This document shows, in pieces, positions 3,589 through 16,071 of a stretch of DNA of 26,866 bases. Numbering within the stretch: position 1 is the stretch's first letter; each line of letters starts with the position of its first letter. The stretch comes from a virus, in the IMG/VR virus record IMGVR_UViG_3300042475_001789, positions 1 to 26,866 of that record; one strand, 5' to 3'. The notes beneath the pieces are model-generated. The model ran no database searches. It was not told the DNA's origin and was given only the letters and a program-made list of their open reading frames with translations. The position numbers and the translations under genes are program-made.

Positions 3589-3664
3589 TGGTGCTCCCAG
3601 TAGGACTCGAACCTACGATCAAGACGTTATGAGCGTCCGGCTTTAGCCGCTAAGCTATAGGAGC
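3589..3664 (-). tRNA. tRNA with anticodon CAT (Met or lysidine Ile)
   Basis: Acceptor GCTCCTA/TGGGAGC with encoded CCA, anticodon stem GGACG/CGTCT, loop CTCATAA giving CAT, T-arm GTAGG-TTCGAGT-CCTAC. This is the second CAT tRNA in the window; one of the two may be the Ile type modified at C34. Confidence 0.88.
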
Positions 3665-3668
3665 AAAT

Positions 3669-3759: not shown

Positions 3760-3760
3760 A

Positions 3761-3913: not shown

Positions 3914-3929
3914 TGCAACCTCTATATTC

Positions 3930-4006
3930 TGGTGTCCCCGGTCGGACTCGAACCGACACTACGCAGATTTTAAGTCTGCTGACTCTACCTATTGGCCTAC
4001 GAGGAC
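3930..4006 (-). tRNA. tRNA-Leu-like (TAA) with a short variable loop
   Basis: Acceptor GTCCTCG/CGGGGAC with encoded CCA, anticodon stem GCAGA/TCTGC, loop CTTAAAA giving TAA (Leu, UUA codon). T-arm GTCGG-TTCGAGT-CCGAC. The variable loop is only five bases, so the body is type I, unlike bacterial leucine tRNAs. Confidence 0.87.
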
Positions 4007-4012
4007 TTATAT

Positions 4013-4088
4013 TGGCGGTCCCGGAAGGATTCGAACCCTCGACCTACCGCTTAGAAGGCGGATGCTCTATCCACTGAGCTACGGAACC
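4013..4088 (-). tRNA. tRNA-Arg (TCT)
   Basis: Acceptor GGTTCCG/CGGGACC, discriminator G, encoded CCA. D-arm GCTC/GAGC, anticodon stem CCGC/GCGG, loop CTTCTAA giving TCT. It begins nine bases after the stop of the glycine-zipper gene. Confidence 0.94.
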
Positions 4089-4096
4089 ATTATCTC

Positions 4097-4564
4097 TTAT
4101 TTGACAAAATCTACTTTATACTCTTTTCCATCGATTGTAAACATCAAAGTGGAGTGTGAGTAAATTTTTCTTGGTTCATCTATATATGTGACTTTATCGT
4201 AACAGCTTTTTTCTTCACGGTAACCAACGATCACTTGCTCGGTCTTCGGTTTGCTACCTTGATCTGCTCCAATAATACCACCTACAATAGCACCAGCAGC
4301 TGCACCATTATCTTTGTCAGTAATTGCTTTACCAGCTACACCACCGATGATCATACCAAGAAGCGCACCACCAGCAGCATTTCCGGAGCGGGAGCGGGTT
4401 TCATATACAGGTACTTCGATCACTTCACAGTAAAGATCGACTACTTCCTTTGTTACATACTCAGTAACATAGTTGTCTTTTACTTTTGCGTTTACCTTCT
4501 CAGCATTAGCCGGCAAGGAAAAGCTGATCAAGATAGTCGTCGCTATAGTAAGGGTCTTCTTCAT
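4097..4564 (-). CDS. Secreted glycine-zipper protein
   Basis: The 155-residue product has a clear Sec signal (residues 1-21, ending SLPANA) and a central glycine-zipper stretch (about 61-100) with two small-residue-rich hydrophobic segments typical of the glycine zipper 2TM family. Cysteines at 46 and near 118 could form a disulfide in the periplasm. Related proteins occur in bacterial envelopes and in T4-like marine phages; their phage role is unknown, with membrane insertion or superinfection effects as guesses. GGAG lies eight bases before ATG 4564. The start overlaps the preceding gene by 59 bases in another frame. Downstream tRNAs are likely in the same transcript. Confidence 0.8.
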   Translation of the reverse strand: MKKTLTIATTILISFSLPANAEKVNAKVKDNYVTEYVTKEVVDLYCEVIEVPVYETRSRSGNAAGGALLGMIIGGVAGKAITDKDNGAAAGAIVGGIIGADQGSKPKTEQVIVGYREEKSCYDKVTYIDEPRKIYSHSTLMFTIDGKEYKVDFVK

Positions 4565-4745
4565 GGGGCATCTCCAAGCCAGTTTCGGGTGTCTTCATTT
4601 CACATGAATTGAAGTACTCTTCCCAGTACGTATTTACCATTTTTTCTGTGGTGATATCTTCGATCGAACTAAATTTGCCAAAGGCAAACTTCATGATTTC
4701 ACCTGCAACTTCCATCTCGAAGTCAGACATGATAGAGTTGGTCAT
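4506..4745 (-). CDS. Small acidic unknown protein (79 aa)
   Basis: The frame from ATG 4745 gives MTNSIMSDFEMEVAGEIM and ends in an acidic tail (HEEDPYYSDDYLDQLF). The frame is open to 4787, but an ATG there would lie in the promoter, upstream of the likely transcript start. The first 18 bases of leader contain AGGACGGGATA, shared with the leader of the gene at 18161. I recognise no family. It overlaps the glycine-zipper gene by 59 bases, long for a spurious pair, and codon content in the overlap seems compatible with both. Confidence 0.65.
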   Translation of the reverse strand: MTNSIMSDFEMEVAGEIMKFAFGKFSSIEDITTEKMVNTYWEEYFNSCEMKTPETGLEMPHEEDPYYSDDYLDQLFLAG

Positions 4746-4778
4746 AGTATTGTATCCCGTCCTTTGAATCACTCTAAT

Positions 4779-4813
4779 ATTATACACACGAGGTAGCGGG
4801 TTGTAAACCCCCT
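4779..4813 (-). promoter_or_regulatory. Promoter P4 (TTTACA-17-TATAAT)
   Basis: ATAGGGGG, TTTACA (4802-4807), 17-base spacer, consensus TATAAT (4779-4784). The -35 lies five bases past the stop of the aminotransferase gene. The sequence from the -10 through the leader matches that of promoter P6 at 34 of 38 positions. Confidence 0.92.
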
Positions 4814-6017
4814 ATTTCAAAGAATCTAGTAAAAGTTCTTCTAAATACTCGAAATATTCCTCATCGGCATTTAATGGGGCTGTTATTCTAAGTACTGAAA
4901 GGTCACTATATTTTCCACTAGCTCCATATGTTCTTTTTTTAAGATTTGTAAATTCTTCATTATTGATATTTGGATCGATATCATATGCAATATTAAGACC
5001 GAAAGCTCTATAGGATTTAATCAATCCAGTTTTTATAAGCCGATCCCCAATTTCCGATAATTTATTCTCAGTGATTTGAGACTTTTCTAATAAATTTTCT
5101 TCTAAGATAATATCAGTAGTAGTTTTCATAGCAGCAATTCCAGCCATATAAGGTTGAAACGTATGTCCGTAATAAACTCTATTTTTTACAACAGTTTTTA
5201 CTTTGTTATTAACTACAGTTACTGACAATGGGGCATATCCTGCGGTTATAGCTTTGCCTAGACACGATATATCCGGTTTAATCCCGACTGGAAAAATTGT
5301 AGTATGACTATGAAATGCTTTAGACCTTCCCCAGCATGAAGCAATATCATCTGATATTAATAAAAATTTAAATTTTTTTCTTAACTGATCTAATTCTTTT
5401 AAAAAATAATGCGACCAAACATTAACACCATTAAACCAGGGGCTTGGATTAATTAATACTATTCCTACTTTTTTATTTTTATATAGATTGTTTCTAAGAT
5501 CTTTTAAGGTCTGTTTTTCTTTTTCCTCTTGATCTCTATAATCTGTCCATATAGGGGAATCAATTAGAATTGTTCTATTACCAACTTCGCTATTTAAACC
5601 ACTAAGTGTTTTAGTCAATGAACTAGTACCATGCCACCCTTTTCTAAAAGCTATTATATAAGTTTTATTTTCACCTAATAATTTCCAATATTCATCTGCT
5701 ATAGATATGGCAGCTTCTACGGCGCCTGTTCCGGTTATCGACCAGATGAATCCAGACCATCCACCGGATTTACAAATAAAATCCGAAACTTCATCTATTA
5801 AATTGTGTTTATAGCCAAGGGGTGAATGACACCTTGTTACTGAAATCAATGAATCGTATACGGATTTAGCAATTCTTTTATTTCCATAACCAAGAGTAAA
5901 AGTAGATCCGCCAGAGGTAATATCTAGATATTTTTTACCATCTTCATCATAAATCCAATATCCTTCTGTTTTGGATATTTTTATGTTATTTGTAGTTTTA
6001 AGGGTCAGGTCAATCAT
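4812..6017 (-). CDS. Class III PLP-dependent aminotransferase
   Basis: The 401-residue protein has the fold-type I layout. N-terminal YWIYDEDGKKYLDITSG is typical of class III; the phosphate-cup region is SITGTGAVEAA (93-103), followed by GWHG (127-130). SDDIASCWGR (222-231) places Asp223 at the pyridine nitrogen, and CLGKAITAGYAPLS (252-265) places Lys255 as the Schiff-base lysine; GHTF (284-287) follows. All key residues are present, so it should be active. The family includes glutamate-1-semialdehyde mutase and ornithine, diaminobutyrate and amino-sugar aminotransferases; the substrate cannot be read here. It is the last gene of the glycan operon, overlaps the gene before it by four bases (ATGA), and is visibly AT-richer than nrd genes, suggesting recent acquisition. 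Confidence 0.88.
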   Translation of the reverse strand: MIDLTLKTTNNIKISKTEGYWIYDEDGKKYLDITSGGSTFTLGYGNKRIAKSVYDSLISVTRCHSPLGYKHNLIDEVSDFICKSGGWSGFIWSITGTGAVEAAISIADEYWKLLGENKTYIIAFRKGWHGTSSLTKTLSGLNSEVGNRTILIDSPIWTDYRDQEEKEKQTLKDLRNNLYKNKKVGIVLINPSPWFNGVNVWSHYFLKELDQLRKKFKFLLISDDIASCWGRSKAFHSHTTIFPVGIKPDISCLGKAITAGYAPLSVTVVNNKVKTVVKNRVYYGHTFQPYMAGIAAMKTTTDIILEENLLEKSQITENKLSEIGDRLIKTGLIKSYRAFGLNIAYDIDPNINNEEFTNLKKRTYGASGKYSDLSVLRITAPLNADEEYFEYLEELLLDSLK

Positions 6018-6610
6018 TTCGTAACAATCCCTACATTTTCCGGAACCGCAAACTTAATATTATTATGGCGGTGGTGTAGAACGAACTGAGTATTCGGAAA
6101 CTCTTTAAAAAGTTCCTGCCAAACAGGTCTCCAATTATTTGCGAGTCGAAGATTGTTTGTATCACCTCTATCTGACACAAGATAAAAGTCTGTACAACTT
6201 CTTAAATTAAAATCGAACATAGAGTCGAATCCATACATATGGACTTCAGAACCTTTTAGTTTATTTGCTGCATAGTGAACAGCCATATGTCCACAATTAA
6301 AATTCGTATAGTTTTCAGCATAACTTGGTAATGTAAGATATACATCCCTTACATTATGCATCCACTTTATACGAAGATTTGGATTCATCTCAAGATATTT
6401 ACTAGGTCTAAATCCTAAAATCCAATCACCGGGAACAGTTACGCTTCCCTCATGCATTGCTCTCATCATCTTAAAATCTACTATACAAGTGCCATATACC
6501 CCATCAACGGAAAATGGTGGTAAATTACAAGTTAGTTTCATCCCAGGAGAACCCTGCTTGTACATATGAGAATTATCACCATTGCCAATTACATGTATAA
6601 CTTTAGCCAT
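6014..6610 (-). CDS. Putative glycosyltransferase, GT42/DUF115-like Rossmann protein
   Basis: The 198-residue protein starts VIHVIGNGDNS (4-14), a nucleotide-binding-like loop after a beta strand. The stretch NCGHMAVHYAANKLKGSEVH (105-124) leads into MYGFDSMFD, which resembles the conserved core of GT42 sialyltransferases and DUF115 proteins (small residues, helix, G-K-x-hydrophobic strand, G-[FI]-D). A role in transferring an acidic sugar or in related surface decoration is inferred only from this similarity and from the neighbours. The length is short for GT42. It overlaps the GT8-like gene by eight bases and the aminotransferase by four. Confidence 0.55.
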   Translation of the reverse strand: MAKVIHVIGNGDNSHMYKQGSPGMKLTCNLPPFSVDGVYGTCIVDFKMMRAMHEGSVTVPGDWILGFRPSKYLEMNPNLRIKWMHNVRDVYLTLPSYAENYTNFNCGHMAVHYAANKLKGSEVHMYGFDSMFDFNLRSCTDFYLVSDRGDTNNLRLANNWRPVWQELFKEFPNTQFVLHHRHNNIKFAVPENVGIVTK

Positions 6611-7241
6611 TCATAAGTTTCCTAATATGATCTTTACCTTTCTGACCGGTCCAATGATATACGAGTGGATCGGCTGGGACTGTTTTATCTATGTGTTGAA
6701 TACGGAGGACGTTGTACTTGTTTGGTAGATCTTCTATAAACGTCATTCTTTTTAGAGGATTGTCCATCATCATATGCAAAACTTCTTGGTCACCTTGCAC
6801 CGGTTGCGTAGCACAAGATAGTTCCCAGTCAGTTAAAACGCTTGGAACACCGTGGTAAGCAACTACACCAGAGTTATGCCATTTCTCTCCGCGCCTTTGT
6901 GTCCACGGCTTATCTACTGTCATGGACAATTTGTTTGGTTGAATATAATCGAATATCTTAGAGATATTACCCAGTATCTCGCAATCTGTATCTAGCCAGC
7001 ACACATTCTCTGCGTATTCTGCAGCGATCCTCATAGCTTTGGGCTTCTTAAACCACCCGTGCTCGTGCCCGCGTACGCTCTTGAGAATATCGGAAAACTG
7101 ACTGCTTGTCATACCGAAATCCATAATCATAAGAGGTATGTCATTATGCTTCGTCAGATTATCAACGAACCATGGAAGCATCCATTCACTAGATGCATCG
7201 CACCCTGTAATAAACAGTTTAGATAATTTTGTATTTGCCAT
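6603..7241 (-). CDS. GT8-like glycosyltransferase
   Basis: The 212-residue protein shows the GT-A pattern: VCWLDTDCEI with the metal-binding DTD at 84-86, HNSGVV (122-127), GDQEVL (150-155) and a C-terminal YHWTGQKGK, matching the His-x-x-Gly-x-x-Lys end of GT8 enzymes. The family uses UDP-hexoses as retaining transferases, so it probably adds a hexose to the operon's glycan. Shorter than typical bacterial GT8 (about 300), so the N-terminal part is compact. ATG 7241 has only a weak binding site; it overlaps the previous gene's end by 23 bases, favouring coupled translation. Confidence 0.72.
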   Translation of the reverse strand: MANTKLSKLFITGCDASSEWMLPWFVDNLTKHNDIPLMIMDFGMTSSQFSDILKSVRGHEHGWFKKPKAMRIAAEYAENVCWLDTDCEILGNISKIFDYIQPNKLSMTVDKPWTQRRGEKWHNSGVVAYHGVPSVLTDWELSCATQPVQGDQEVLHMMMDNPLKRMTFIEDLPNKYNVLRIQHIDKTVPADPLVYHWTGQKGKDHIRKLMNG

Positions 7242-7863
7242 TATAATTATGCTTCGCTAAGCATCCCTCAGTTTTCTGAATAGTAGTAAAAGAATCATGA
7301 GCTTCTGCAGGCCATGGATAGTATTCTTCCATCCATGGGAAGTTCTTTAAGTTCATGAACACATCTGTAGGTCCAGCAACGGTCTTAGCTTTTTCCATAA
7401 GAGCTTTTGCTCCAGATGGTTTAATCATATAGGCGTGTGCACCTGGCATATAAGGCTTAGAGGTTAATGGATTCACACCGAGTAATACTGGTGTATTAAA
7501 TTTCCCATAACTCGGTTTACCAATATTCATTACATGAGAAAATGAACTAAACATCGGTATATTATCTTTCAATATAGCATCATGCTCGAAGATAGTATAT
7601 GGAACATCGTCGCCTTCGCACAATTTCCATAGTGTATAATGGGACAAGAATGCTGCTACACAATTTTCAAGCCGAGAATACTTCTCTTGAAACCCGTCAA
7701 CTGGTATACCCCAGTCCTTTGCCATTCTCAGTGGATTATCTGCAGGGGTAACAGCAGCAAAAATCTCAACGTCTAAGCCAAACTTTTTACCAGATTCAAT
7801 ACATCTATTTGCAACACGACAAGACTCGTCATTATCCATTATTGTTATTACATAAGCTTTCAT
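7219..7863 (-). CDS. GT25-family glycosyltransferase (first copy)
   Basis: The protein (214 aa) starts MKAYVITIMDNDES, the usual GT25 start (strand, then D/N-rich loop). SHYTLWK (74-80) and FEHDAIL (92-98) are the family's conserved helix and metal-site motif, with EHD in place of EDD, and PGAHAYMIKPSGAKAL fits the C-terminal motif. GT25 enzymes are galactosyl- or glucosyltransferases of LPS/LOS. The ATG at 7863 lies five bases after GGAG; a GTG two codons upstream is less likely. One of three paralogues in this operon. Confidence 0.78.
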   Translation of the reverse strand: MKAYVITIMDNDESCRVANRCIESGKKFGLDVEIFAAVTPADNPLRMAKDWGIPVDGFQEKYSRLENCVAAFLSHYTLWKLCEGDDVPYTIFEHDAILKDNIPMFSSFSHVMNIGKPSYGKFNTPVLLGVNPLTSKPYMPGAHAYMIKPSGAKALMEKAKTVAGPTDVFMNLKNFPWMEEYYPWPAEAHDSFTTIQKTEGCLAKHNYNGKYKII

Positions 7864-7865
7864 AA

Positions 7866-8720
7866 TCACTCCGATGTAGTAGATTTCATTCCAGTAACTT
7901 TAGTATAATAAGGATATGCAACTTGTAATTTTCCGGGCATGAGCTGCTTACACATTATCGCATCATTTGGCCATAAACCATTCTCTGCAGTTAAAGCGAT
8001 CAGCGCTGCAGCACCTTCTGGTTTTAATATGTATGCTGAATTTCCAGCCAGCCCTTGCGGAATCATTTGGTTGTCGATCCACGGGGTTTCCATAACATCC
8101 ACAATAGGATATTTTTTTAACTTGTCCCATCGGTCAGAATATTTTTTCCTTACGACCTCATCGAACTTAGACGATCTTCTAGTCGCCCCCATTGGGTTAT
8201 TTAACCCAATAATATGTCCAGTAAATTTTCCCTGAAGTTTACTGTAATCAAATTCTTTAATAAAGACTGCATCATGTTCTAAGATCATAATCGGTTCATC
8301 TATCTGATAGCAATGTAACCAAAGTGAATAGTGGCTTAGGGTACAAGCAATTCTTTTCCTTATATCCTTCGTGGGATAGAAAGAAAGTTGTAACCCCGTT
8401 CTTAGATCATAACGATTCTCAGATTCTTTTGTAGGATATGTCCAACTGATATTCGGAACCGCCGATTTCCCGAATAGTTGATTATGAGTTTCGTCTAGGG
8501 TGTCGGGAGTGACAGCTGGGAATATGAATGGCTGTATCTTTGACTTCGTTAAGTTAATCGACTGAATGACTTTTCTTGAAGCAACAGTAGAATCGTGATT
8601 GTTTACCATCGATATCACATAGGCTTTCATTCTATATTTCGTCCTTTCAGTCACAGTTTCTAGAGTAGGTGGTTCAGTCTGAAACGGCATCCACTCCTTT
8701 ATAACTTCTAATTTGTTCAT
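7866..8720 (-). CDS. GT25-family glycosyltransferase (second copy)
   Basis: 284 residues. The GT25 domain begins at residue 31 with MKAYVISMVNNHDS, then LSHYSLW (128-134), MILEHDAVF (145-153) and GNSAYILKPEGAAAL. A 30-residue N-terminal extension (MNKLEVIKEWMPFQ...) precedes it. The start at 8720 shares ATGA with the end of the methyltransferase gene, while an internal ATG at 8630 has AAAGGACG upstream, so both may be used. The region between the first strand and SHYSLW is longer than in the neighbouring copy, implying a different acceptor. Confidence 0.75.
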   Translation of the reverse strand: MNKLEVIKEWMPFQTEPPTLETVTERTKYRMKAYVISMVNNHDSTVASRKVIQSINLTKSKIQPFIFPAVTPDTLDETHNQLFGKSAVPNISWTYPTKESENRYDLRTGLQLSFYPTKDIRKRIACTLSHYSLWLHCYQIDEPIMILEHDAVFIKEFDYSKLQGKFTGHIIGLNNPMGATRRSSKFDEVVRKKYSDRWDKLKKYPIVDVMETPWIDNQMIPQGLAGNSAYILKPEGAAALIALTAENGLWPNDAIMCKQLMPGKLQVAYPYYTKVTGMKSTTSE

Positions 8721-9370
8721 TTCTTTATAAGCATAATTGTACTATCAGGGATGTACTCTCTTGAAGTTTTGCTAGGGGTCCAATCGGTTTTCATCCTAAC
8801 ATCATAGAGTTGATGTTTATATGGTGAAATTTCTGCTAAAAATTTATTATAAGCTGTTGGATTTAACTTATCAGCTGCACTAATAACCCATGGATGATTA
8901 TAATCCGAAAAGTCCATAATATTAAATGGCCAAACATCTTCGACAAAATATTTGCCGCCTTCTTTTAGAAACTGAATCAGATGCTTGAATGTTAGTCTAT
9001 TTGCTTCTGGCCAATGTGCACCATCATCAATAATAAGGTCAAATTGAACGCCAGGCCAAGTTTCTTCCACTAGTTTTATAATGGACGGATCTAATGAATC
9101 ACCCTTTAACCATTTCACCCGTTCTTCTTTTAGAATTTCAATCTCTTCGACAGGAACTCGAGAAAAGATATCAATGCCATAAATGGTTGCATTCGGAAAA
9201 TATTCATGAAATGCTGTCGTACTAGCGCCTTTAAAGACACCAATCTCTAAGATATTAATCTTATCATTTCGAATAGGTTCAAAGTGCTGCTCATACACAT
9301 GATGATAAAAATGTTTTTTCGAACCTTTGTCGGTCTTATGCTTATCAAAAATGGCAAGAAGTTCGCTCAT
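8717..9370 (-). CDS. SAM-dependent methyltransferase (class I)
   Basis: 217 residues with ILEIGVFKGAS (40-50, motif I), IYGIDIF acidic strand (motif II) and FDLIIDDGAHW (110-120, motif IV). The start DKHKTDKGSKKHFYHHVYE is the pattern of sugar and macrolide O-methyltransferases of the MycE/TylF-like and cephalosporin hydroxylase-like groups, in which the DDxxH region binds metal. It could methylate a sugar hydroxyl of the operon's glycan. Start and stop each overlap neighbours by four bases. Confidence 0.75.
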   Translation of the reverse strand: MSELLAIFDKHKTDKGSKKHFYHHVYEQHFEPIRNDKINILEIGVFKGASTTAFHEYFPNATIYGIDIFSRVPVEEIEILKEERVKWLKGDSLDPSIIKLVEETWPGVQFDLIIDDGAHWPEANRLTFKHLIQFLKEGGKYFVEDVWPFNIMDFSDYNHPWVISAADKLNPTAYNKFLAEISPYKHQLYDVRMKTDWTPSKTSREYIPDSTIMLIKK

Positions 9371-10056
9371 TTAATAATTCCCCATATGTTTTTCGTCGGG
9401 CCTGTATCAAAGTCATAGCCAAACATATCTATATCAGATTTATACCAGTCGGCTACTATTGCTATTGTGTTGTCGTCGTACAGATCTTTATACGATCCTT
9501 CGTTCATTCCTGTGATGTTTCTTGCTTGTGGTGGTGTATCCAAATCAAAATAATCGCAGATATCCTTATCAAAATTTTCAAATGATAGTATATCACATCT
9601 TAAATTTCCGTCTAGATCAGTCACATGATCTACCGCGGGATACCAACCGCGAATGGCCCGGTGCCACATGTAATCTACATTTCCCCATTTATATCTCTCA
9701 TCCAGGAAAGCCTCAAATGAACTTACATCTGCATAAGTTGGCGGGGATTTATATTCTACTTCAATGATCTTCTTTGCAAAAAGATATCGAGAAACAACTC
9801 TATCCCATGGGTTTCTTACTACCGCGAACGATTTATATTTATTTGTAATGTCAGGATTTAAATCCCTCCACCTTGCATGCTCAAACCCATGATGATCGCC
9901 TAGAAATTCCATTTTCTTTCTTACTGTGTCGGAATACTCTTTCGATTTATGAATCTCTGGACCAGCTGGAATAATTAGATTCTGTAAGATTGGATTCAAT
10001 CGGATCGTAGTTCCAGCATTCTTTGGAATGTGAATAAAGATTTTCTTATCAGACAT
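9367..10056 (-). CDS. PAPS-dependent sulfotransferase (first copy)
   Basis: 229 residues. IHIPKNAGTT (8-17) is the 5'-phosphosulfate binding loop and AVVRNPWDRVVSRY (78-91) the 3'-phosphate motif of the Sulfotransfer_2/carbohydrate sulfotransferase type; both are complete. The C-terminus FDTGPTKNIWG matches the second sulfotransferase of the operon. The substrate is expected to be a carbohydrate hydroxyl. PAPS must come from the host. It sits directly before a methyltransferase gene in transcription order, as does the other copy. Confidence 0.85.
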   Translation of the reverse strand: MSDKKIFIHIPKNAGTTIRLNPILQNLIIPAGPEIHKSKEYSDTVRKKMEFLGDHHGFEHARWRDLNPDITNKYKSFAVVRNPWDRVVSRYLFAKKIIEVEYKSPPTYADVSSFEAFLDERYKWGNVDYMWHRAIRGWYPAVDHVTDLDGNLRCDILSFENFDKDICDYFDLDTPPQARNITGMNEGSYKDLYDDNTIAIVADWYKSDIDMFGYDFDTGPTKNIWGIIK

Positions 10057-10825
10057 TCTTGATTAGTTCCTGAATATTCTCCCCACCCATAGGAAGTTTA
10101 TCTTTTAAGAAGAAATGCACGAAGTGACATTCTTGAATTCTAGTGTTTGCGGTGTAAAGACCGTTCCACTTCCAATCCATATTCTTTATACTCATCTTCT
10201 CTTTCCGAATCCAATAGTTTAACAGAGTCTGATCTGTAGACCATTTCCATGGACCAATACCATCAATGAAAGCTTTAAACTCGGGTCTTCTTAGGAACTG
10301 TAACGGGGTTTCACCTTTCAGATATTTGTACACGGACTTATTCATTACAATAACCCCCATGTTCATAAACTCCCCGCCTTTGTCGTCCCATTTCCAATCG
10401 ACGTCCCTGATAGAACCATATTGCATCTTAGAATAGTTAATGATCTTCTGAACATACTGATCCGAGAGTGGCATTTCTCTTTCTACCACAGCACCAAAAT
10501 CATAATCCCCAGGTAGATCATCAAATATATTAGCAGCATTATCACGAATATAAACATCCGCATCGATAATAGCCACTTGATCATAGCTTTTAAGATACGC
10601 AAACGCATTCTCCTTTTCATAGATCGGCAGGAATCCACCATACTTTTCATAACTTTCTTTACTTCTATTCGTTAGAAAAATGTCTGGTTTTATCATAAGA
10701 ATAGGCGTATCTTGGCGAATATAATCAGCCCCGATAGTTTTCGCATACTGTTTAACACTAGCAGTACAAAGATCATATAACTTAGATCTTTTACCGGTAT
10801 AAACTTGATATATTAATTTTTTCAA
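10049..10825 (-). CDS. GT8-like glycosyltransferase with TTG start
   Basis: 258 residues. VAIIDADVYIRD (84-95) holds the GT-A DxD motif (88-90); FMNMGVIVMN matches the N-x-G region, STDQTLLNYW the D-Q motif, and CHFVHFF the C-terminal His motif. The fold is GT8/glycogenin-like and the donor is probably a UDP- or other nucleotide hexose. The first codon is TTG at 10825, overlapping the previous stop as ATTGA; no ATG with a ribosome binding site lies nearby, so translation likely depends on coupling. Confidence 0.7.
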   Translation of the reverse strand: MKKLIYQVYTGKRSKLYDLCTASVKQYAKTIGADYIRQDTPILMIKPDIFLTNRSKESYEKYGGFLPIYEKENAFAYLKSYDQVAIIDADVYIRDNAANIFDDLPGDYDFGAVVEREMPLSDQYVQKIINYSKMQYGSIRDVDWKWDDKGGEFMNMGVIVMNKSVYKYLKGETPLQFLRRPEFKAFIDGIGPWKWSTDQTLLNYWIRKEKMSIKNMDWKWNGLYTANTRIQECHFVHFFLKDKLPMGGENIQELIKNV

Positions 10826-11439
10826 TTTCTTTCACCAATTCTTTCTTTATTGGTACCAACTTGGCTATGAATAAAATGTCTTGCAAAGATATTATTCTTA
10901 ATCCAGTCTTTTTCCAATACACCGTAAGGATACCAGGGTTCTTTCGAATGAATAAAACCGTCTACGGGAACAATTACCTCTTGCGTTAAAATATCATTTA
11001 ACATACTATTTGCGCGTTCCGGTTTTATATAATATCCTACGGCGGCTAAAGAATGATTTCTTGTGGAGCACGCAAAACTAAAAAGAGGAAATTTAGTTAT
11101 AGATTTAGATATCTTTTTAGTTAATATACAATCATGCTCTATAATAATACTTGGCTGACCACTTTCAATAATTCTTTTCCACGCCTCAGTATGGGAATAC
11201 CAAATAGCCTTTTCAGTAGCATTCCAACCGCGTTTTCTTTTACTACTATAGATTCTATTCTCTGCAAAATTTAAATAATTAGATTCTGGTATGGTATCTG
11301 GTAATGTTGCTTCGTGGTGGATAAGATTACTATAACCTCTTTTTAAAAAAGACTCATCAGCAATTTTTCTATAAAATTGCGAAATTTCGTTGTTTGATAT
11401 AGAAATAACATAGATGGGTATATTCTTATCGATAGTCAT
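10822..11439 (-). CDS. GT25-family glycosyltransferase (third copy)
   Basis: 205 residues. IPIYVISISNNE opens the domain, YSHTEAWKRI (81-90) is the conserved helix, SIIIEHDCIL (97-106) the metal-site motif with EHD, and GYYIKPERA the C-terminal motif. Same EHD variant as the other two copies, so the three probably share an ancestor while their acceptor regions differ. AT-rich. Coupled to the gene before by a 14-base overlap; GGAG sits ten bases before ATG 11439. Confidence 0.72.
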   Translation of the reverse strand: MTIDKNIPIYVISISNNEISQFYRKIADESFLKRGYSNLIHHEATLPDTIPESNYLNFAENRIYSSKRKRGWNATEKAIWYSHTEAWKRIIESGQPSIIIEHDCILTKKISKSITKFPLFSFACSTRNHSLAAVGYYIKPERANSMLNDILTQEVIVPVDGFIHSKEPWYPYGVLEKDWIKNNIFARHFIHSQVGTNKERIGERN

Positions 11440-12385
11440 TTAAACTAAACTCCGTACCATGCATTTTATAATTCTCTCTACCGTGGTTAGAGTAAACTAG
11501 AACTTCAGGATCGTCAATTAAGAAATCGCATCCCTTACAGAAATCTGGATAGTCGCCGGTTTCATGTTGTTTACGAAGGGTATTGTAAGCTTCCCCATAC
11601 CAGATTTCTTCCAGTCTCTGATCACTCATGTGACCTAGAACAGCTTCATCATCCCTACCCAATACTTGACAGCATGGGTGGACAGCTCCTCTGCTATCGC
11701 CGAGACCACCTGCGCGAATAACAACATCAGGGCTAAAAGGACGACCACAAGTCTTAATGGCACCATCACGGCCATAGTCAGGCTTATAAACACCAGACCA
11801 ATTATGCATCTTCCAAATCTCAGTTTTAACACCAGCTGAATTAACGATTTTAAGATACTCATCTCTTTCGTAATCGACTCGATTATTATCAAGAATGAGG
11901 TGATAGGTTGCAACAGTGCACGACGAATTCGTTTTGGTAACATATTCTTGCATCTCATGTAGATTTTTTACAACAGGGTTAAAGAATGGGCTGTTCATCC
12001 ATTCTCTATAGGTTTCTTCGTTATAACCAACAATGCTAAATCTGAAGAAGTCACAACCAGCGTCAACGACTTCTTTCATGAAGTCGCCTTTCATTCTTTG
12101 ACCATTTGAGAACATAAAGGCCTTTGCACCATACTTCTTTACAATAGAAACGTATTCAGCAAGGTTGCGATTCAAAGTTACTTCACCAGAACCATCCAGA
12201 TTTACCACACGTAATCCAGCCTCAGCACACTGGGCAACATAATCTTCGAATTCATCAAGTGGCATTTTTTTCAGCCAGTTTTTTCCACGAGCGCCGTGCG
12301 TACCATCTGGAAAAGTTTGTGGACACATTTTGCATGTGTAATTGCATCCACCATTAATCTCAATAACCGCTCGATCAATCTTCAC
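11426..12385 (-). CDS. Radical SAM protein with SPASM/Twitch-type auxiliary cluster
   Basis: 319 residues. CNYTCKMC (Cys14, 18, 21) is the radical SAM cluster motif, DGSGEVTL (64-71) stands for the GGE motif. Cys213, the Cys238-Cys239 pair, Cys283 and Cys286, with the usual LGHMSDQRLEEIW between, form a C-terminal auxiliary Fe-S region of the SPASM/Twitch kind. Relatives include dehydrogenases such as BtrN and many unassigned enzymes in surface-glycan loci, which oxidise or rearrange a sugar or peptide. The start is GTG 12385 with AGAGGA upstream, overlapping the previous stop (GTGA). Its presence beside a class III aminotransferase suggests oxidation followed by amination of a sugar. That pairing is an inference. 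Confidence 0.82.
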   Translation of the reverse strand: MKIDRAVIEINGGCNYTCKMCPQTFPDGTHGARGKNWLKKMPLDEFEDYVAQCAEAGLRVVNLDGSGEVTLNRNLAEYVSIVKKYGAKAFMFSNGQRMKGDFMKEVVDAGCDFFRFSIVGYNEETYREWMNSPFFNPVVKNLHEMQEYVTKTNSSCTVATYHLILDNNRVDYERDEYLKIVNSAGVKTEIWKMHNWSGVYKPDYGRDGAIKTCGRPFSPDVVIRAGGLGDSRGAVHPCCQVLGRDDEAVLGHMSDQRLEEIWYGEAYNTLRKQHETGDYPDFCKGCDFLIDDPEVLVYSNHGRENYKMHGTEFSLNDYR

Positions 12386-13239
12386 TTATGAATTCCTCTT
12401 AATCTTTTCTTCTGTAGATTAGCAAACTCTGTAGCTCTTTCAATTCTTCTTTCAAAGTTATGGAAATAATTTAGGGAGTGTGTATCTGCTTTTCTTACTT
12501 TATATATTAAGGCGTCTGGGGTATGATAATTGGTAATTAAGTCTTTAGTAAGAACTATAGTAGGCTTACCCATATTCTTAGCAACATAGTGCCACATCCC
12601 TTCATAACATAGACAAGCTTCGGCGGTTTTGATATGATAAAACACTTCTGAGATAGGCGTTCTATAATCTATTTCTGTTACACTATAACCTTGCATCTCT
12701 ATAATATCAATTACTTTATTCCATTGATTACGATCAAAGGGTCTTTTAAATGGTCTCGGTTCTTGAGCGTTATTTACTTGTGTCCAGATTACTACTTTTT
12801 TCTTTATAGGATTGGCATCCATCTTTCGAAAATACCAATCATTATATCTCATCCTAGATCTTTTCTGGATATGGCCGTCTAGTTTAAGCATCCTACTATA
12901 TCCAAAAAATCGATTATGATGGAGAGCAAGATTATCTGAATTAAAAACGTGTTGTATATTAACGTCTGTATCTTTCTTAGCATAAAAGTTGTTTATATAA
13001 TGGAATCGTTCTAAAATAGTTTCCGGATCCTCAAAATGATATAAGAAATCTTCATCATGGTACCAATGTAAAACTAGATTTATTTTTTTCTGCGCATAAA
13101 AAGATCTATAATAAGCTACATTTAAAATGCACATTAGATCACCGATTCCCGGCGTCATTTTAGCTTCTATTACAGAAGAAAAATTTATACGAGGAACAAA
13201 TGGAAGATACTTTTTAAAATATTCTTCATTAATAGGCAT
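12382..13239 (-). CDS. GT-B glycosyltransferase-like protein (GT9/heptosyltransferase type)
   Basis: 285 residues. TPGIGDLMCILNVAYYRSF (29-47) matches the N-terminal G-x-G-D-hydrophobic loop of GT9 enzymes, and TAEACLCYEGMWHYVAKN (205-222) followed by MGKPTIVL matches the C-terminal acceptor/donor-domain motif (helix, Gly, His, A-K-x-x-GKP). The centre IWTQVNNAQEPRPFKRPF would be the interdomain region that binds phosphate. Assignment is by pattern only; a fucosyltransferase-like GT-B is an alternative. Coupled by 11 and 4 base overlaps. Confidence 0.6.
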   Translation of the reverse strand: MPINEEYFKKYLPFVPRINFSSVIEAKMTPGIGDLMCILNVAYYRSFYAQKKINLVLHWYHDEDFLYHFEDPETILERFHYINNFYAKKDTDVNIQHVFNSDNLALHHNRFFGYSRMLKLDGHIQKRSRMRYNDWYFRKMDANPIKKKVVIWTQVNNAQEPRPFKRPFDRNQWNKVIDIIEMQGYSVTEIDYRTPISEVFYHIKTAEACLCYEGMWHYVAKNMGKPTIVLTKDLITNYHTPDALIYKVRKADTHSLNYFHNFERRIERATEFANLQKKRLRGIHK

Positions 13240-13828
13240 ACGTTTCCATATCTAAAAACATTATAATACCAGGTGTGGTATTTTCTTTATGGGTAATCAC
13301 ATAAAACCAATACTTAGGAAAGAGAGATTTATTAAACAAATCATATTCTTTTATGGCTTGCCTTACCCCTGGTAGTTCTACATTATCAAATAATATGTAT
13401 CTTGGTTTTATTTCGAAAGTTTTTTTAATATCTTTTACTACAGATTCATAGGAATGGTTACCATCAATAAAGACCAGGTCGGGGGTTTCTACTTCGGTTT
13501 TAGGTAAAGTACTAGGAATAAAAGTAAATCTATCCCCGTATCTTTCTTTAATAGGAATATGGGAAATCTCTGAGAATTTTCCTGGGTCTAGACTAGTAAC
13601 CTTAGCTTCTGGAAAATGCTCAAGTAAACAGACTGTAGAGTGTCCAGCGAACATCCCCACCTCTATAATATTCGTAACATTCTTTGTAAGAGAACTTACT
13701 TCTTCCCACATGGTTCGAACATCTAAAAGGCTAGGATCTAGATATCCCCATCCTTGCCCGTTAAACTTTTCACCTTTCTTTTCTGGTTCTGGTCTTACAA
13801 GGAAAGATGTATCAATTTGTTTTAGCAT
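13229..13828 (-). CDS. SAM-dependent methyltransferase (Methyltransf_24 type)
   Basis: 199 residues from ATG 13828, which follows GGGGTG at five bases; an upstream GTG (13834) is less likely. IIEVGMFAGHS (54-64) is motif I, KVTSLDPG motif II, and DLVFIDGNHSYESV (117-130) the Methyltransf_24 hallmark. It shares the arrangement but not the close sequence of the methyltransferase at 8717. Probably an O-methyltransferase on the same glycan. It follows a sulfotransferase gene, as the other one does. Confidence 0.75.
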   Translation of the reverse strand: MLKQIDTSFLVRPEPEKKGEKFNGQGWGYLDPSLLDVRTMWEEVSSLTKNVTNIIEVGMFAGHSTVCLLEHFPEAKVTSLDPGKFSEISHIPIKERYGDRFTFIPSTLPKTEVETPDLVFIDGNHSYESVVKDIKKTFEIKPRYILFDNVELPGVRQAIKEYDLFNKSLFPKYWFYVITHKENTTPGIIMFLDMETYAY

Positions 13829-14486
13829 TTTCACCCCAATAATTTTTAGTAGCTGATGTATCGAAAGAAAAACCCCAGCGGTCTATGTCTTTCTGAAACC
13901 ACTTTTTTACTCTGTCTCTTTGTTCATTCGTATAGTAAGATTTATAATCTACTTTTTTGGTGGTATTGACCATCTCCAATCGGATACTCTTACCCAAATA
14001 TCTATTTAAATCATAATTAAGATATTCGTACCTTAAAACATCAACTTTTAATCCTAGCCACTTTTCCTGACACGCCCATTGGTCATATGGATGATTACAG
14101 AAGAAATTTAAATCCTCTATATAACTATCCATACGATCTAGGAATTCATCCCAGAATAGGAAGTCTTGGAAATAGCTTGTTCCTATAGAAGACTTCATCC
14201 TTTCAGAGAAAGTGTAATTATATAATGAAACCAATCTTGACCAAGGATTTCTTACTACAGAGAAAATCTTATCATAAGACTGTATTATATTACTATCCAT
14301 ATAACTATATGGTATGTGCTTAGCGAAGCTATTATACCAAGGGAATTTAACATATTGGGATTTGTTAAATTCCTTTAGAATGATTTTATCCATATGATCC
14401 CAAGTTGCTTTCGCCATAGGTAAAGACCGGAGGATGCTAGTCCCTCCGGTCTTAGGTATATGAATAAACAATATATTGTTAGACAT
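13812..14486 (-). CDS. PAPS-dependent sulfotransferase (second copy)
   Basis: 224 residues. FIHIPKTGGTS (7-17) and FSVVRNPWSRLVSLY (75-89) are the two PAPS motifs. The end FDTSATKNYWG parallels FDTGPTKNIWG of the copy at 9367, so the two are paralogues, though the acceptor regions differ clearly. The acceptor is presumably a second position on the glycan. It overlaps the small gene before it by eight bases and the methyltransferase by 17-23 bases. Confidence 0.85.
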   Translation of the reverse strand: MSNNILFIHIPKTGGTSILRSLPMAKATWDHMDKIILKEFNKSQYVKFPWYNSFAKHIPYSYMDSNIIQSYDKIFSVVRNPWSRLVSLYNYTFSERMKSSIGTSYFQDFLFWDEFLDRMDSYIEDLNFFCNHPYDQWACQEKWLGLKVDVLRYEYLNYDLNRYLGKSIRLEMVNTTKKVDYKSYYTNEQRDRVKKWFQKDIDRWGFSFDTSATKNYWGENAKTN

Positions 14487-14697
14487 TCGCTAGGATGGAT
14501 CTCGCAAGATCCTGTGACTCTTCATAGCCCGAGCGAAAACGATTACCAGTAGCACCATTGTCGATATACCACTGAAGGTTATCTACAATTCCGGCCTTAC
14601 GCTTATCGTCCATTTTATAGTCTCGAACAATCTCTTCCCACTGAAAGCGAAGGTCAAGAAGTTCAAAGACGTTTACTTTAGCCTGTGACATATTCAT
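14479..14697 (-). CDS. Small unknown protein (72 aa)
   Basis: Begins MNMSQAKVNVFELLDLRFQW and looks fully helical, with alternating charged and hydrophobic residues. No family recognised. AAGGACG precedes ATG 14697 at normal spacing and it overlaps the HAD gene by 20 bases, so it is translated as part of the operon. Whether it belongs to the glycan pathway or merely shares the promoter is unknown. Confidence 0.65.
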   Translation of the reverse strand: MNMSQAKVNVFELLDLRFQWEEIVRDYKMDDKRKAGIVDNLQWYIDNGATGNRFRSGYEESQDLARSILANV

Positions 14698-15250
14698 AAA
14701 CGTCCTTCCAGTTTCTCATCATAGGAAAAGTATTAGGGGTATTCATATTGAAGCCGTGTTCAATTAGAATAGAATTCAATCCAAGATCACGACCAAGTAC
14801 GGCATTCTCTACCTTATCTTCGATCCAGATATCACCAGAGTTCTCGTAAGGAAGCAATGCTTCATCCTTATCTGCACCAGTATCAAGGAAGACGAACTTC
14901 TCGAATACGGTAGAACCAAACAGCTTATTCAGGTTCTGAATACGCAGTTGTTGAGCAGTAGGCTCGAGCGAGAGCGAAGTAATGACGTGGAACACTACGC
15001 CATGTTTGCGGTGGAGCTTATCCACATAGTGCATAGCATCACGGAGGGGAGGAAGGAAACCAATCGCAGAGCTCTCGTTGAAGTGTTTCACGAGACGCTG
15101 TTTCTCTTCTTTGCTGATGCCATATCGATCACCTACATCGTAGTATTCCCACGAGTCTGGTTTTTCTACATACCCATGACGTTGCATCCAGACATTAAAG
15201 GCATATTCCCAGTTCAGTAGAACCCCATCACAGTCGGTTAGAATTCTCAT
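14678..15250 (-). CDS. HAD-like hydrolase, 5'-nucleotidase-like
   Basis: 190 residues. MRILTDCDGVLLNWEYAF holds the DxD nucleophile motif (Asp6/Asp8), FHVITSLS fits motif II, and GDIWIEDKVENAV fits the acidic C-terminal motif of HAD phosphatases. Phage relatives resemble 5'(3')-deoxyribonucleotidases. It could recycle nucleotides or dephosphorylate a sugar phosphate for the operon. It is the first gene behind promoter P5, with AAAGGA before ATG 15250. Confidence 0.8.
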   Translation of the reverse strand: MRILTDCDGVLLNWEYAFNVWMQRHGYVEKPDSWEYYDVGDRYGISKEEKQRLVKHFNESSAIGFLPPLRDAMHYVDKLHRKHGVVFHVITSLSLEPTAQQLRIQNLNKLFGSTVFEKFVFLDTGADKDEALLPYENSGDIWIEDKVENAVLGRDLGLNSILIEHGFNMNTPNTFPMMRNWKDVYEYVTG

Positions 15251-15278
15251 AACGATTCCTTTCGTTGGTTACATTAGC

Positions 15279-15314
15279 ACTATAACCCATTCACTTTCAA
15301 ATGTAAATCCCCTA
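15279..15314 (-). promoter_or_regulatory. Promoter P5 (TTTACA-17-TATAGT), glycan operon
   Basis: ATAGGGGA, TTTACA (15302-15307), 17-base spacer, TATAGT (15279-15284). It is the only recognisable promoter for the 15 genes from 15250 down to 4812, because their overlaps leave no intergenic space. Confidence 0.88.
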
Positions 15315-15315
15315 T

Positions 15316-15504
15316 TTAAGAAACAGAGTTATCTTCCTCAACGTCATCTGGCAAAATCCAGTTGATTTTCGTCCCCTTGTAACGGTGTACATCCTTATGT
15401 TCTTCTGTCATTCGGATCTTCTTCTTGAAATCACTCCCGAGAGTCTTCGATTTGTTACGACCGTTCTTTTTGTTACGCGGGTCGAAGCGAGTATACTTAG
15501 CCAT
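15316..15504 (-). CDS. Small basic unknown protein (62 aa)
   Basis: Starts MAKYTRFDPRNKKNGRNKSK, strongly basic in its first half and acidic at the end (DDVEEDNSVS). No family recognised; the basic stretch would suit nucleic-acid binding. AAAGG precedes ATG 15504. It is the last gene of the unit starting at promoter P6, and promoter P5 begins right after its stop. Confidence 0.7.
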   Translation of the reverse strand: MAKYTRFDPRNKKNGRNKSKTLGSDFKKKIRMTEEHKDVHRYKGTKINWILPDDVEEDNSVS

Positions 15505-15505
15505 T

Positions 15506-16069
15506 TTACCTTTCCATTTTTGTTTTAGTGCAAACGAAGACCAGTCTATGGCCTTTTTCTATTTTCGAAACCCCATGAACTGTTTTTTCATTCCAGACAA
15601 TAGAGTCCCCAGGATTTTTTAGAAATTTAGTAATTAATCGTTCCCGAATATTTTCTTTCTTATTGGGATTTTTGTAATCAGGTTCTATAGAATCCCCAGC
15701 AATTACAATAATACCCCCAATTATATCCTCAGATTGATCAATCAATATAACATTAGTATATTGATTTTTCCCTACACTAATATCGACATTTTCAGTATGT
15801 AATCCCGAAAATGATCCGAGAGGATAATATTTCATCCAAGATTTATCTAGGATATATTCCGGATCTTGGGGGTAAGTTTTTTCATTTAGATAATAAAAAA
15901 GTTCTTTATGATTCTCCCAAAAAGATCCTTTTTTTATCGTTCCAAGATATTTTTCGTAATTCTGTTTACCTCTATTAGGATGAAAATCTTTTTTATGATC
16001 ATAGAATTCTTTTTTCAAGATTTCTATTAATTCAATATTTTCCACCTTATATGTAAAACCAGGTTCCAT
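15506..16069 (-). CDS. 2-oxoglutarate/Fe(II)-dependent oxygenase (prolyl 4-hydroxylase-like)
   Basis: 187 residues. YYPLGSFSGLHTENVD (81-96) gives the first metal ligands His91 and Glu93 (HxE rather than the more frequent HxD), and VHGVSKIEKGHRLVF (164-178) gives the distal His165 and Arg175 that binds 2-oxoglutarate. Such enzymes are frequent in T4-like marine phages and hydroxylate proteins, sugars or nucleic-acid bases; substrate unknown. The gene starts at ATG 16069, overlapping the PhoH stop region, and AAGGG precedes it. AT-rich compared with its neighbours. Confidence 0.82.
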   Translation of the reverse strand: MEPGFTYKVENIELIEILKKEFYDHKKDFHPNRGKQNYEKYLGTIKKGSFWENHKELFYYLNEKTYPQDPEYILDKSWMKYYPLGSFSGLHTENVDISVGKNQYTNVILIDQSEDIIGGIIVIAGDSIEPDYKNPNKKENIRERLITKFLKNPGDSIVWNEKTVHGVSKIEKGHRLVFVCTKTKMER

Positions 16070-16071
16070 AA

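Follow-up and report, generated by a model that had tools for sequence, protein, structure and literature searches.

What an operon of glycosyltransferases and decorating enzymes makes for a virus, and on which acceptor, is the question raised by a 26,866-nucleotide stretch of viral DNA (IMG/VR record IMGVR_UViG_3300042475_001789, positions 1 to 26,866; hereafter the window), whose source is a marine T4-like virus of bacteria. An earlier note had interpreted the operon as a phage-borne pathway for a sulfated, methylated and amino-substituted glycan. Our analysis confirmed the observation of the operon itself and partly supported that interpretation.

All 15 open reading frames (4812–15250, Table 1) lie on the minus strand and, as had been described, overlap their neighbours, by 4–23 nt at 14 of 14 junctions. 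The operon has a G+C content of 36.6%, compared to 41.3% in the rest of the window, and its neighbours are phoH and tRNA genes rather than genes for structural proteins; hydropathy analysis indicated transmembrane segments in 0 of its 15 proteins. The claim that one promoter drives these genes fared less well. A sigma-70-like sequence, a consensus match only, sits in the 65-nt gap upstream of the operon; because 60 such matches were observed between positions 3500 and 17500 versus 50.7 (sd 7.4) expected, which is no clear enrichment, and because four equal-scoring matches on that strand fall within the operon itself, transcription from one promoter cannot be taken as established. The TATAAATA motif does not occur within the operon. 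It is enriched in phage C48C1 (22 versus 3) and two further records (25 versus 10 and 14 versus 6), whereas the closest record to the window shows no enrichment (7 versus 8). The promoter match, the phoH neighbour and the operon's freedom from TATAAATA were counted for an acceptor on the host surface, the last being a weak argument given the nearest record.

Table 1. Operon genes in order of transcription and the upstream promoter match, in window coordinates. Match values are E-values; fractions are sequences keeping a motif or, where stated, loci among 73 relatives.
Feature	Position	Strand	Evidence
Sigma-70-like promoter match	15279..15307	-	TTTACA-17-TATAGT, consensus match 10/12
HAD/NT5C-like (5'-deoxyribonucleotidase type) phosphatase, 190 aa, first gene	14678..15250	-	DxDG 35/35
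72-aa protein, left-hand border marker	14479..14697	-
Sulfotransferase b (PAPS type)	13812..14486	-	Sulfotransfer_2 6.3e-7; phrog_3347 'Galactose-3-O-sulfotransferase' 2.5e-13
Methyltransferase b (Methyltransf_24)	13229..13834	-	Pfam 1.9e-9; ExG motif E and G 18/18
GT9-like (heptosyltransferase fold) glycosyltransferase, radical SAM partner	12382..13239	-	AlphaFold model pLDDT 88.5
Radical SAM/SPASM enzyme, one auxiliary cluster motif	11426..12385	-	Pfam 1.9e-15, 2.9e-9; BtrN 6.8e-9
GT25 c	10822..11439	-	Pfam 3.5e-8; EHD 43/45
GT8-like b (putative), constant core	10049..10825	-	Glyco_transf_8 0.02; DxD 116/116; 70/73 loci
Sulfotransferase a (PAPS type)	9367..10056	-	Sulfotransfer_2 4.3e-10; phrog_3347 1.9e-11; RNPW 23/23
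Methyltransferase a (Methyltransf_24)	8717..9370	-	Pfam 1.1e-6; phrog_21658 4e-20; 34/73 loci
GT25 b, constant core	7866..8720	-	Pfam 7.4e-14; EHD: E 92, H 87, D 92 of 93; 72/73 loci
GT25 a, constant core	7219..7869	-	Pfam 3.8e-11; EHD 88/88; 72/73 loci
GT8-like a (putative; GT-A type with DxD), constant core	6603..7241	-	DxD 79/79; 66/73 loci
GT42/DUF115-like putative CMP-sugar glycosyltransferase, constant core, comparison seed	6014..6610	-	Model pLDDT 89.8
Class III aminotransferase, last gene, exchangeable	4812..6017	-	Aminotran_3 7e-44; PLP lysine 18/18

Enzyme families of the operon

Scored against the curated gathering cut-offs of Pfam, the earlier family assignments held for three GT25 proteins, two sulfotransferases, two methyltransferases, the radical SAM/SPASM enzyme and the aminotransferase, but those to GT8, GT9, DUF115 and HAD were not obtained by profile alone. 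The GT25 proteins (Glyco_transf_25) reached 43.7, 52.5 and 34.0 bits against a cut-off of 24 and carry EHD, the conserved acidic motif of this family. Both sulfotransferases (Sulfotransfer_2, 40.6 and 30.2 bits versus 22) retain the 5' and 3' motifs with which such enzymes bind PAPS, the RNP of the 3' phosphate motif being kept in 13 of 13 sequences for sulfotransferase b. The methyltransferases (Methyltransf_24) scored 29.9 and 38.8 bits versus 26.3, and one of them also resembled, in a partial match of 22 residues, a family of phage DNA methyltransferases (0.00039). The aminotransferase (Aminotran_3) scored 150.6 bits versus 30.5. Its best named families are BioA, ArgD and ornithine aminotransferase, whose substrates are amino acids and related amines; the enzyme class proposed earlier is supported, but these families give less backing to an amino-substituted glycan.

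The two GT8-like proteins are putative members of their family, given weak profile matches together with an invariant DxD motif: GT8-like b scored 14.9 bits, below the Glyco_transf_8 cut-off of 24.3, and GT8-like a had no Pfam match; it gave phrog_1962 ('glycosyltransferase') at 0.087 and, in a profile comparison, glycogenin at E 0.66 only. For the GT9-like and GT42/DUF115-like calls, where profiles were likewise insufficient, predicted structures provided support. The DUF115-like protein scored 11.8 bits with the DUF115/MptE-like profile (cut-off 34.6). In VIA, its model matched Maf (Z 11.5 over 160 residues, 3.5 Å), Cst-I and Cst-II (both 10.4), with thiamin pyrophosphokinase lower at 7.9; Foldseek returned weak matches (E 0.04 only). 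The predicted model thus supports a sialyltransferase/Maf fold. The protein has at least 568 viral relatives, and in one relative the same gene run holds a gene for a KdsB-like CMP-Kdo synthetase (PDB 1gq9, 1.9e-32) whose product falls below all NCBIfam cut-offs; CMP-sugar synthesis was found in one of ten records searched.

The GT9-like protein has no GT9 Pfam match, and its profile found no PDB match up to E 1. With its predicted model, Foldseek placed TibC on top (4.5e-5), with WaaF at 8e-4, and VIA gave WaaC at Z 11.6 (207 residues, 4.4 Å). Since other GT-B enzymes, along with partial matches, lie within 1 Z of WaaC, the comparison decides the GT-B fold but not the GT9 family. TibC and Maf are protein glycosyltransferases, and the fact that proteins, too, are glycosylated by members of several of these families was counted against a host-surface acceptor.

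The adjoining radical SAM enzyme scored 57.9 bits versus 29.5 for Radical_SAM and 37.5 versus 21.5 for SPASM. Across an alignment of 25 sequences, mean column identity is 74%, and the cysteines C14, C18, C21, C213, C238, C239, C283 and C286 are invariant. Its best relative of solved structure (PDB), BtrN, aligns in two pieces that take in CxxxCxxC, the C238/C239 region and CxxC, C213 falling outside the alignment. No NCBIfam cut-off was reached by this protein: the best model, that of a tungsten-cofactor maturase, gave 67.6 bits (1e-18) against a cut-off of 380, and further families below their cut-offs include viperin. With 322 viral relatives in one scan, this very conserved family poses an open problem in enzymology.

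At the upstream end, the HAD protein scored 23.1 bits with NT5C, below the cut-off of 24.8, and matched phrog_420 (function unassigned, 1.5e-33) and phrog_2643 (5'-3' deoxyribonucleotidase, 0.0023). Its gene lies upstream of the core in 20 of the 73 relative loci described below; the protein is more likely a conserved neighbour than an enzyme of glycan synthesis and, contrary to the earlier proposal, probably not a member of the pathway. The 72-aa protein that follows has a mean column identity of 38% in a 21-sequence alignment. Within 9.5 kb upstream of the core, its gene was found in 45 of the 73 loci and phoH in 32.

Constant and exchangeable genes among relatives

We compared 73 non-redundant relative loci, seeded on the DUF115-like gene. 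Linkage in relatives, on which the earlier note had staked its reading, was borne out for the core: all five core glycosyltransferase genes (GT8b, GT25b, GT25a, GT8a and GT42/DUF115-like) are linked in 64 of the 73 loci, and in six more a substitute glycosyltransferase, c21 (phrog_1962 glycosyltransferase, 2.8e-20), replaces GT8-like a, bringing the count to 70; part of the core is missing in three (L148, L206 and L225). The remaining genes come and go, namely the GT9–radical SAM(–GT25c) cassette, the sulfotransferases, the methyltransferases and the aminotransferase, joined in relatives by epimerases, carbamoyltransferases and nucleotidyltransferases. A constant core of five transferases with decorating genes that vary around it therefore describes a stable stem with exchangeable decoration, and the glycan is accordingly probably a variable sugar coat, made on the host or on the virus itself.

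Sulfation and the radical SAM step, both part of the pathway as first proposed, retain their enzymes but emerge as accessory: sulfotransferases occur in 21 of the 73 loci and the radical SAM gene in 13. The GT9–radical SAM pair is present in nine of these loci, and among 49 nr loci, 39 have a GT9-like gene directly beside the one for the radical SAM enzyme. The aminotransferase gene occurs in 11 of the 73 loci; in a relative that is 98% identical, it alone has been replaced by a 40%-identical allele, between flanks of 98.7% and 97.4% identity. A reaction order in which the radical SAM enzyme acts and the aminotransferase follows was considered and is unsupported, because the aminotransferase is also found in loci lacking the radical SAM gene. 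In a single-pair comparison with one relative, dN/dS was 0.005–0.111 for every operon gene except the aminotransferase (14 genes), which shows them to be under purifying selection; catalytic motifs are kept. The conserved core, purifying selection, kept motifs and swapping of a decorating gene together favour a surface glycan that is variable and under selection, and the five-gene core offers a defined set of genes for expression and assay.

Acceptor of the glycan

GT8, GT9, GT25 and GT42 are the families that, taken together, make up the outer-core pathways of lipooligosaccharide. We give an even chance to the reading that the operon specifies a glycan assembly line in the cytoplasm, its stem constant and its decoration exchangeable, for which the outer core of host lipooligosaccharide is the likeliest acceptor. 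With nucleotide sugars supplied by the host, the core transferases would build a short oligosaccharide, to which the DUF115-like enzyme would add a CMP-activated sugar; the GT9 cassette would add a branch, the sugar of which the radical SAM enzyme may oxidise or epimerise, comparable to the oxidation of its aminocyclitol by BtrN, and sulfate, methyl and amino groups would then be attached in phage-specific patterns. Remodelled early in infection, the outer core would no longer allow other phages to adsorb, and an acceptor on the host surface would make the locus a candidate system by which marine phages exclude superinfection. Profiles for the Wzx flippase (PF01943) and for initiating phosphoglycosyltransferases (PF02397, PF00953), positive in 13, 9 and 12 of 14 control genomes, matched in none of ten records searched, comprising C48C1 and nine linear virus records that are probably incomplete. 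The lack of flippase, initiating transferase and transmembrane segments fits the extension of an acceptor already present in the cytoplasm or at the membrane; a Wzx/Wzy-type O-antigen or capsule locus was rejected on the absence of the first two from these records. Modification of the host O-chain has been proposed for glycosyltransferases of related phages, as the available text of PMC7029224 describes.

The main rival to the host lipooligosaccharide core is a virion protein. Somewhat less probably, the stem and its decoration would be placed on the phage's own capsid decoration, tail or fibre protein, where swaps would alter adsorption, binding or stability, and the locus would then be a tailed-phage parallel to the glycan coats of giant viruses. 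Such glycosylation is consistent with 15 enzymes that all look soluble, with ten records free of lipid-carrier enzymes, and with nearest solved folds that include TibC (Foldseek) and Maf (VIA). Mimivirus glycogene clusters, which supply the fibrils of the virion through a mixture of glycosyltransferases, amino-sugar pathways, methyltransferases and enzymes of sulfate (available text of PMC9614988), and the mycobacteriophage capsid and tail-tube glycans cited in the text available from PMC12619734 point the same way. Against it, the island in the window lies beside phoH and tRNA genes and not beside structural genes, phoH and the 72-aa gene recur upstream in the relatives counted above, and an unsystematic look noticed no acceptor candidate next to the core. 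More doubtfully, the locus may be serotype-like: recombination would swap the sulfate, methyl, carbamoyl and amino groups on a stem made by five constant transferases, so that virions or infected cells would bear a polymorphic glycan, with a recurrent cassette of GT9 and an apparently virus-restricted radical SAM enzyme that would perform glycan-bound sugar chemistry new to phages.

Glycosylation of phage DNA is well known, and the transferases and decorating enzymes could conceivably act on a modified base, as the earlier note had allowed. Although the first gene encodes a deoxyribonucleotidase-like HAD protein and DNA glycosylation in phages is mentioned in the available text of PMC9614988, the 18 window proteins profiled in each library gave no match to a DNA-base glycosyltransferase, a thymidylate-synthase-like protein or a base hydroxymethylase, the 22-residue methyltransferase match aside, and the HAD gene accompanies only 20 of the 73 core loci. 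We consider DNA hypermodification very improbable and DNA the least supported of the three acceptors proposed. Even less credible is that the genes are filler DNA or are carried without selection for function, as the available text of PMC3037559 suggests may be the case for LPS clusters of cyanophages: the wide variation of the decorating genes and the AT-richness of the operon would suit it, but the dN/dS of the one pair, the kept motifs, the open overlapping frames and the linked core contradict it.

Comparison with described systems

Bacterial O-antigen and capsule loci have fixed ends and exchangeable middle genes, a layout similar to that of the phage loci, which in the ten records differ by having neither flippase nor initiating transferase. 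This operon architecture was not found in the literature searched. The earlier statement that no described phage system with this exact combination was known calls for qualification: phage glycan clusters are in print, with other gene sets or, in the passages available, a different architecture. Those of marine T4-like phages had been noted by 2010, with function unassigned, according to the available text of PMC3037559. The LPS clusters of P-SSM2, S-SSM7 and S-SM2 described there are likewise marine T4-like and lie near hli03 or near phoH and tRNA genes. Pelagimyophages form a related, GT8-rich group whose radical SAM cassettes vary even from one genome to a close relative; PMC7029224 places 63 of 162 LPS-related proteins in a host recognition cluster among structural genes and the others in groups of 2–3 genes, its available passages mention no five-gene core, and the word sulfotransferase is absent from its main text. 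Mimivirus clusters are also virus-borne and clade-specific, with glycosyltransferases and amino-sugar, methyl and sulfate enzymes, but belong to eukaryotic giant viruses whose product coats the virion, and 'GT25' and 'sulfotransferase' are absent from the available main text of PMC9614988.

The P-SSM2 clusters are annotated with GT2, GT1, GT11, GT6, GT25, epimerases, carbamoyltransferase and phosphoheptose isomerase. Across 120,000 of the 252,401 bases of P-SSM2, HMMs of the five core transferases, the radical SAM enzyme and the sulfotransferases had no match, whereas models for epimerase, carbamoyltransferase, 2OG-oxygenase and FkbM did, and tblastn of the GT8b, DUF115 and GT25a proteins against a phage collection found no cyanophage. 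In phage C48C1 (OQ984149, Kyanoviridae), GT25 is absent from the whole record, and no sulfotransferase or aminotransferase homologue was recognised in the 41 kb examined, where genes are mostly annotated as hypothetical; its radical SAM gene is nevertheless 62% identical to that of the window, with a GT9-like gene adjoining and homologues of the DUF115-like, HAD and Methyltransf_24 b proteins nearby.

An overlapping gene operon and the families of its products

The earlier note had described fifteen overlapping genes that together could build a sulfated, methylated, amino-substituted glycan, and its observation of the operon is correct: all of them lie on the minus strand, the first starting at 15250 and the last ending at 4812, and successive frames overlap by 4–23 nt at all 14 junctions. 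Hydropathy analysis predicted no transmembrane segment in any of the fifteen proteins. The late motif TATAAATA has a single match in the window, which lies outside the operon; 3.29 matches were expected. Among the families that had been proposed from motifs, GT25 (three proteins), PAPS sulfotransferase (two), methyltransferase (two, Methyltransf_24), radical SAM/SPASM (one) and class III aminotransferase (one) exceeded their Pfam cut-offs, whereas profile search did not establish the GT8, GT9 or DUF115 assignments. The HAD protein, a member of phrog_420, is NT5C-like slightly below the Pfam cut-off. PDB sequence profiles yielded little for the GT8-like, GT9-like and DUF115-like proteins; both GT8-like proteins carry an invariant DxD, with marginal matches only to GT8 enzymes.

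Structure models built on alignments of relatives support the assignment of the GT9-like and DUF115-like proteins. In Foldseek, the GT9-like model (285 residues, pLDDT 88.5) matched the heptosyltransferase TibC at 4.5e-5 and WaaF at 8e-4; VIA-align placed it near WaaC (Z 11.6), WaaF (11.3) and TibC (10.8), with other GT-B enzymes at most one Z unit away; a fold-search family missing from the VIA-align list was not counted as excluded. Its Asp34, conserved in 44 of 51 sequences, falls within one residue, counted from the alignment starts, of the catalytic Asp13 of WaaC. Compared with solved structures, the DUF115-like model (198 residues, pLDDT 89.8) scored highest with Maf (Z 11.5), followed by the GT42 sialyltransferases Cst-I/Cst-II (10.4) and thiamin pyrophosphokinases (7.9); Foldseek alone gave a weak match.

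Positions of features in the window
Position	Feature	Remarks
1–897	Matched by the L002/L082 contig (relative loci)	85% match only
2520–22385	Matched by the L002/L082 contig	99.97% identical; abrupt divergence at 2520
2523–2600	tRNA-Pro, inside tRNA array	Break at 2520 lies just before it
4097–4564	Small protein with glycine-rich stretch, downstream of operon	Similar proteins by eye (cluster c28) near island in 13 loci
4812–6017	Aminotransferase	
6014–6610	DUF115-like protein	Comparison seed
14479–14697	Small conserved protein (72 aa), left border of island	45 of 73 loci
15316–15504	Small conserved protein (62 aa), left border of island	27 of 73 loci
15506–16069	2OG-Fe(II) oxygenase-like gene upstream of island, weak phrog_81 match	Different 2OG-Fe(II) oxygenase-like gene (cluster c17, weak Pfam match) in similar place in about 28 loci
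21144–23768	Ribonucleotide reductase large and small subunits	Adjoin replication genes
23938–24682	Two overlapping genes with N-terminal hydrophobic stretches	One lipoprotein-like signal

A conserved core with exchangeable decorating genes

Gene neighbourhoods were compared at loci found with the DUF115-like protein (best 80 of at least 568 relatives kept) and with a second, more distant seed (76 loci, partly overlapping the first set). The pooled 135 loci became 134 on removal of L229, which has a 34-residue match and no recognised DUF115 gene; shared 5-mers reduced these to 85 non-redundant loci, 73 of them with at least 5 kb upstream. Counting neighbours on the same strand up to 9.5 kb upstream, with the caveat that related loci are not independent events, we found that GT8b, GT25b, GT25a and GT8a all precede DUF115 in 64 of the 73 loci, that a phrog_1962 glycosyltransferase (cluster c21) replaces GT8a in a further six, and that part of the core is missing in three. 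When recognised genes only are taken into the gene order, those immediately before DUF115 are GT25b–GT25a–GT8a in 66/85 loci; another six have c21 where GT8a would stand.

The decorating families, named by Pfam, include methyltransferases in 50 of the 73 loci (four types above the cut-off), or in 67 if types c26, below the cut-off, and c42, without a hit and called by eye, are added. Sulfotransferases occur in 21/73 loci, an epimerase in 18, a HAD-nucleotidyltransferase fusion in 15, the radical SAM gene in 13 (as a GT9–radical SAM pair in nine), the aminotransferase in 11 and a carbamoyltransferase in three. The general reading of a glycan pathway in the earlier note holds, but 'sulfated' and 'amino-substituted' describe phage-specific decorations and not its essence.

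Gene exchange can be seen between close relatives. L093, on the same contig as L006, is 98.7% identical to the window over 6021–16611 and 97.4% over 1773–4818, with no nucleotide match within the limits of the aminotransferase gene, where the proteins are 40–41% identical; L004/L094 show the same replacement between flanks that are 92% and 90% identical. That the operon is filler DNA is unlikely, because dN/dS is 0.005–0.111 for the 14 operon genes other than the aminotransferase, as measured in one pair, with L004, in which dS of the first sulfotransferase is 1.86 and near saturation. The comparison with L009, mostly saturated, was set aside.

The radical SAM protein and its partners

A search of the viral collection yielded 322 relatives of the radical SAM protein (80 kept), against only four in bacterial and archaeal genomes, as scanned with two short patterns that may miss cellular homologues. 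Two of these four (65% identity) are encoded alongside phoH and island genes, so that their contigs resemble phage sequence binned into MAGs. Conservation in the family is very high, with a mean column identity of 74% in 25 sequences and invariant cluster cysteines. The closest solved structure is that of BtrN (6.8e-9), a radical SAM dehydrogenase from the biosynthesis of an aminocyclitol antibiotic, with corresponding cysteine motifs. The best NCBIfam model, a tungsten-cofactor maturase (1e-18), stays far under its cut-off; viperin was rejected, as the PADLOC match (7.6e-11) goes no further than the radical SAM superfamily.

In 39 of 49 non-redundant loci, the radical SAM gene has a GT9-like neighbour no more than 200 nt away. 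At L077, plus-strand GT9–GT9–radical SAM genes and one 208-aa gene are surrounded by minus-strand genes that look structural by eye. The same conserved protein occurs without a GT9 partner, alongside cluster c20 proteins, at L055, L061, L062, L064 and L070; a B12-type radical SAM protein is also adjacent at the first four, and absent beside that of L070. A main mechanism in which the radical SAM enzyme supplies the aminotransferase with a ketone was rejected because L098–L101 have the aminotransferase immediately after DUF115 and no radical SAM gene. At four distant loci (L083–L086), an aminotransferase abuts another radical SAM/SPASM gene.

Acceptor, phage identity and known systems

We searched for lipid-carrier enzymes in ten records, nine of them linear and probably incomplete (90–154 kb) and one the complete phage C48C1 (OQ984149, Kyanoviridae). 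Neither a Wzx flippase nor an initiating phosphoglycosyltransferase of two families was found in any of the ten, control genomes being positive for both. A weak APS kinase match (30.5 bits) occurs in one record, about 49 kb from its DUF115 gene. Because transmembrane segments, flippase and initiating transferase were not found, the acceptor would likely already be in the cytoplasm or at its membrane, as nascent lipid A-core, protein or DNA. The DUF115-like enzyme may use a CMP-sugar donor, which would fit its neighbours in the L050 record (L233, 3854–6255, record G007): there, DUF115 is followed, in overlapping frames, by a B12-type radical SAM gene, its B12-binding domain slightly below the cut-off, and a KdsB-like CMP-Kdo synthetase.

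GT8, GT9, GT25 and GT42 are the family set of lipooligosaccharide pathways, and on the strength of this set and of phoH beside the genes in the window, the lipooligosaccharide outer core is a somewhat more likely acceptor than a virion protein. Maf and TibC, however, which are among the nearest folds, glycosylate proteins, and a virion protein is the main rival acceptor. The nearest functional parallel to a virion acceptor lies in giant-virus glycogene clusters (PMC9614988).

The window, a linear IMG/VR record of 26,866 bases, is probably a fragment. Its genes include phoH, both ribonucleotide reductase subunits, a T4 RNase H-type gene and 18 tRNA genes. PhoH is closest to cyanophage and Methylophilales-phage proteins (47–49% identity), and the major capsid protein of L103, a relative with the same core (record G005), is closest to that of C48C1 (66%), then to Methylophilales Melnitz phages (63%), Pelagibacter phage HTVC008M (61.5%) and cyanophages (about 60%). 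The source is therefore most likely a marine-type T4-like phage. By megablast, no named phage matched the window at the nucleotide level. Among named isolates, the radical SAM and GT9 proteins matched C48C1 only, DUF115 matched C48C1 and, at 28%, DSL-LC06 (annotated sialyltransferase), GT25a matched solely a single-cell marine virus (26%), and GT8b had no match.

According to Sullivan and co-workers (PMC3037559), P-SSM2, S-SSM7 and S-SM2 carry large LPS clusters close to tRNAs near hli03 or phoH, with function given as unknown. Unlike the window, the P-SSM2 clusters encode mainly other glycosyltransferase families, with one annotated GT25, and no homologues of the window's core or radical SAM protein were found in the 120,000 of 252,401 P-SSM2 bases covered, LPS clusters included. 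For pelagimyophages, PMC7029224 places glycosyltransferases in the host recognition cluster and elsewhere; it also describes two close genomes with different radical SAM cassettes, and it proposes that the O-chain of the host is modified. In the literature covered, mostly without subscription papers and without bioRxiv preprints, neither the five-gene core nor the enzyme combination was found described; the kind of system is already known, and its architecture and enzyme combination appear new.

The divergence of the L002/L082 contig stems either from recombination inside the tRNA array or from a join made during assembly. By eye, the overlapping pair with hydrophobic N-termini resembles spanins of the Rz/Rz1 type; no Pfam match supports this. 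In 22 related loci (L011–L071), a 742-aa protein occupies the same neighbourhood as the window's ribonucleotide reductase genes, and one member matches B12-dependent ribonucleotide reductase domains.
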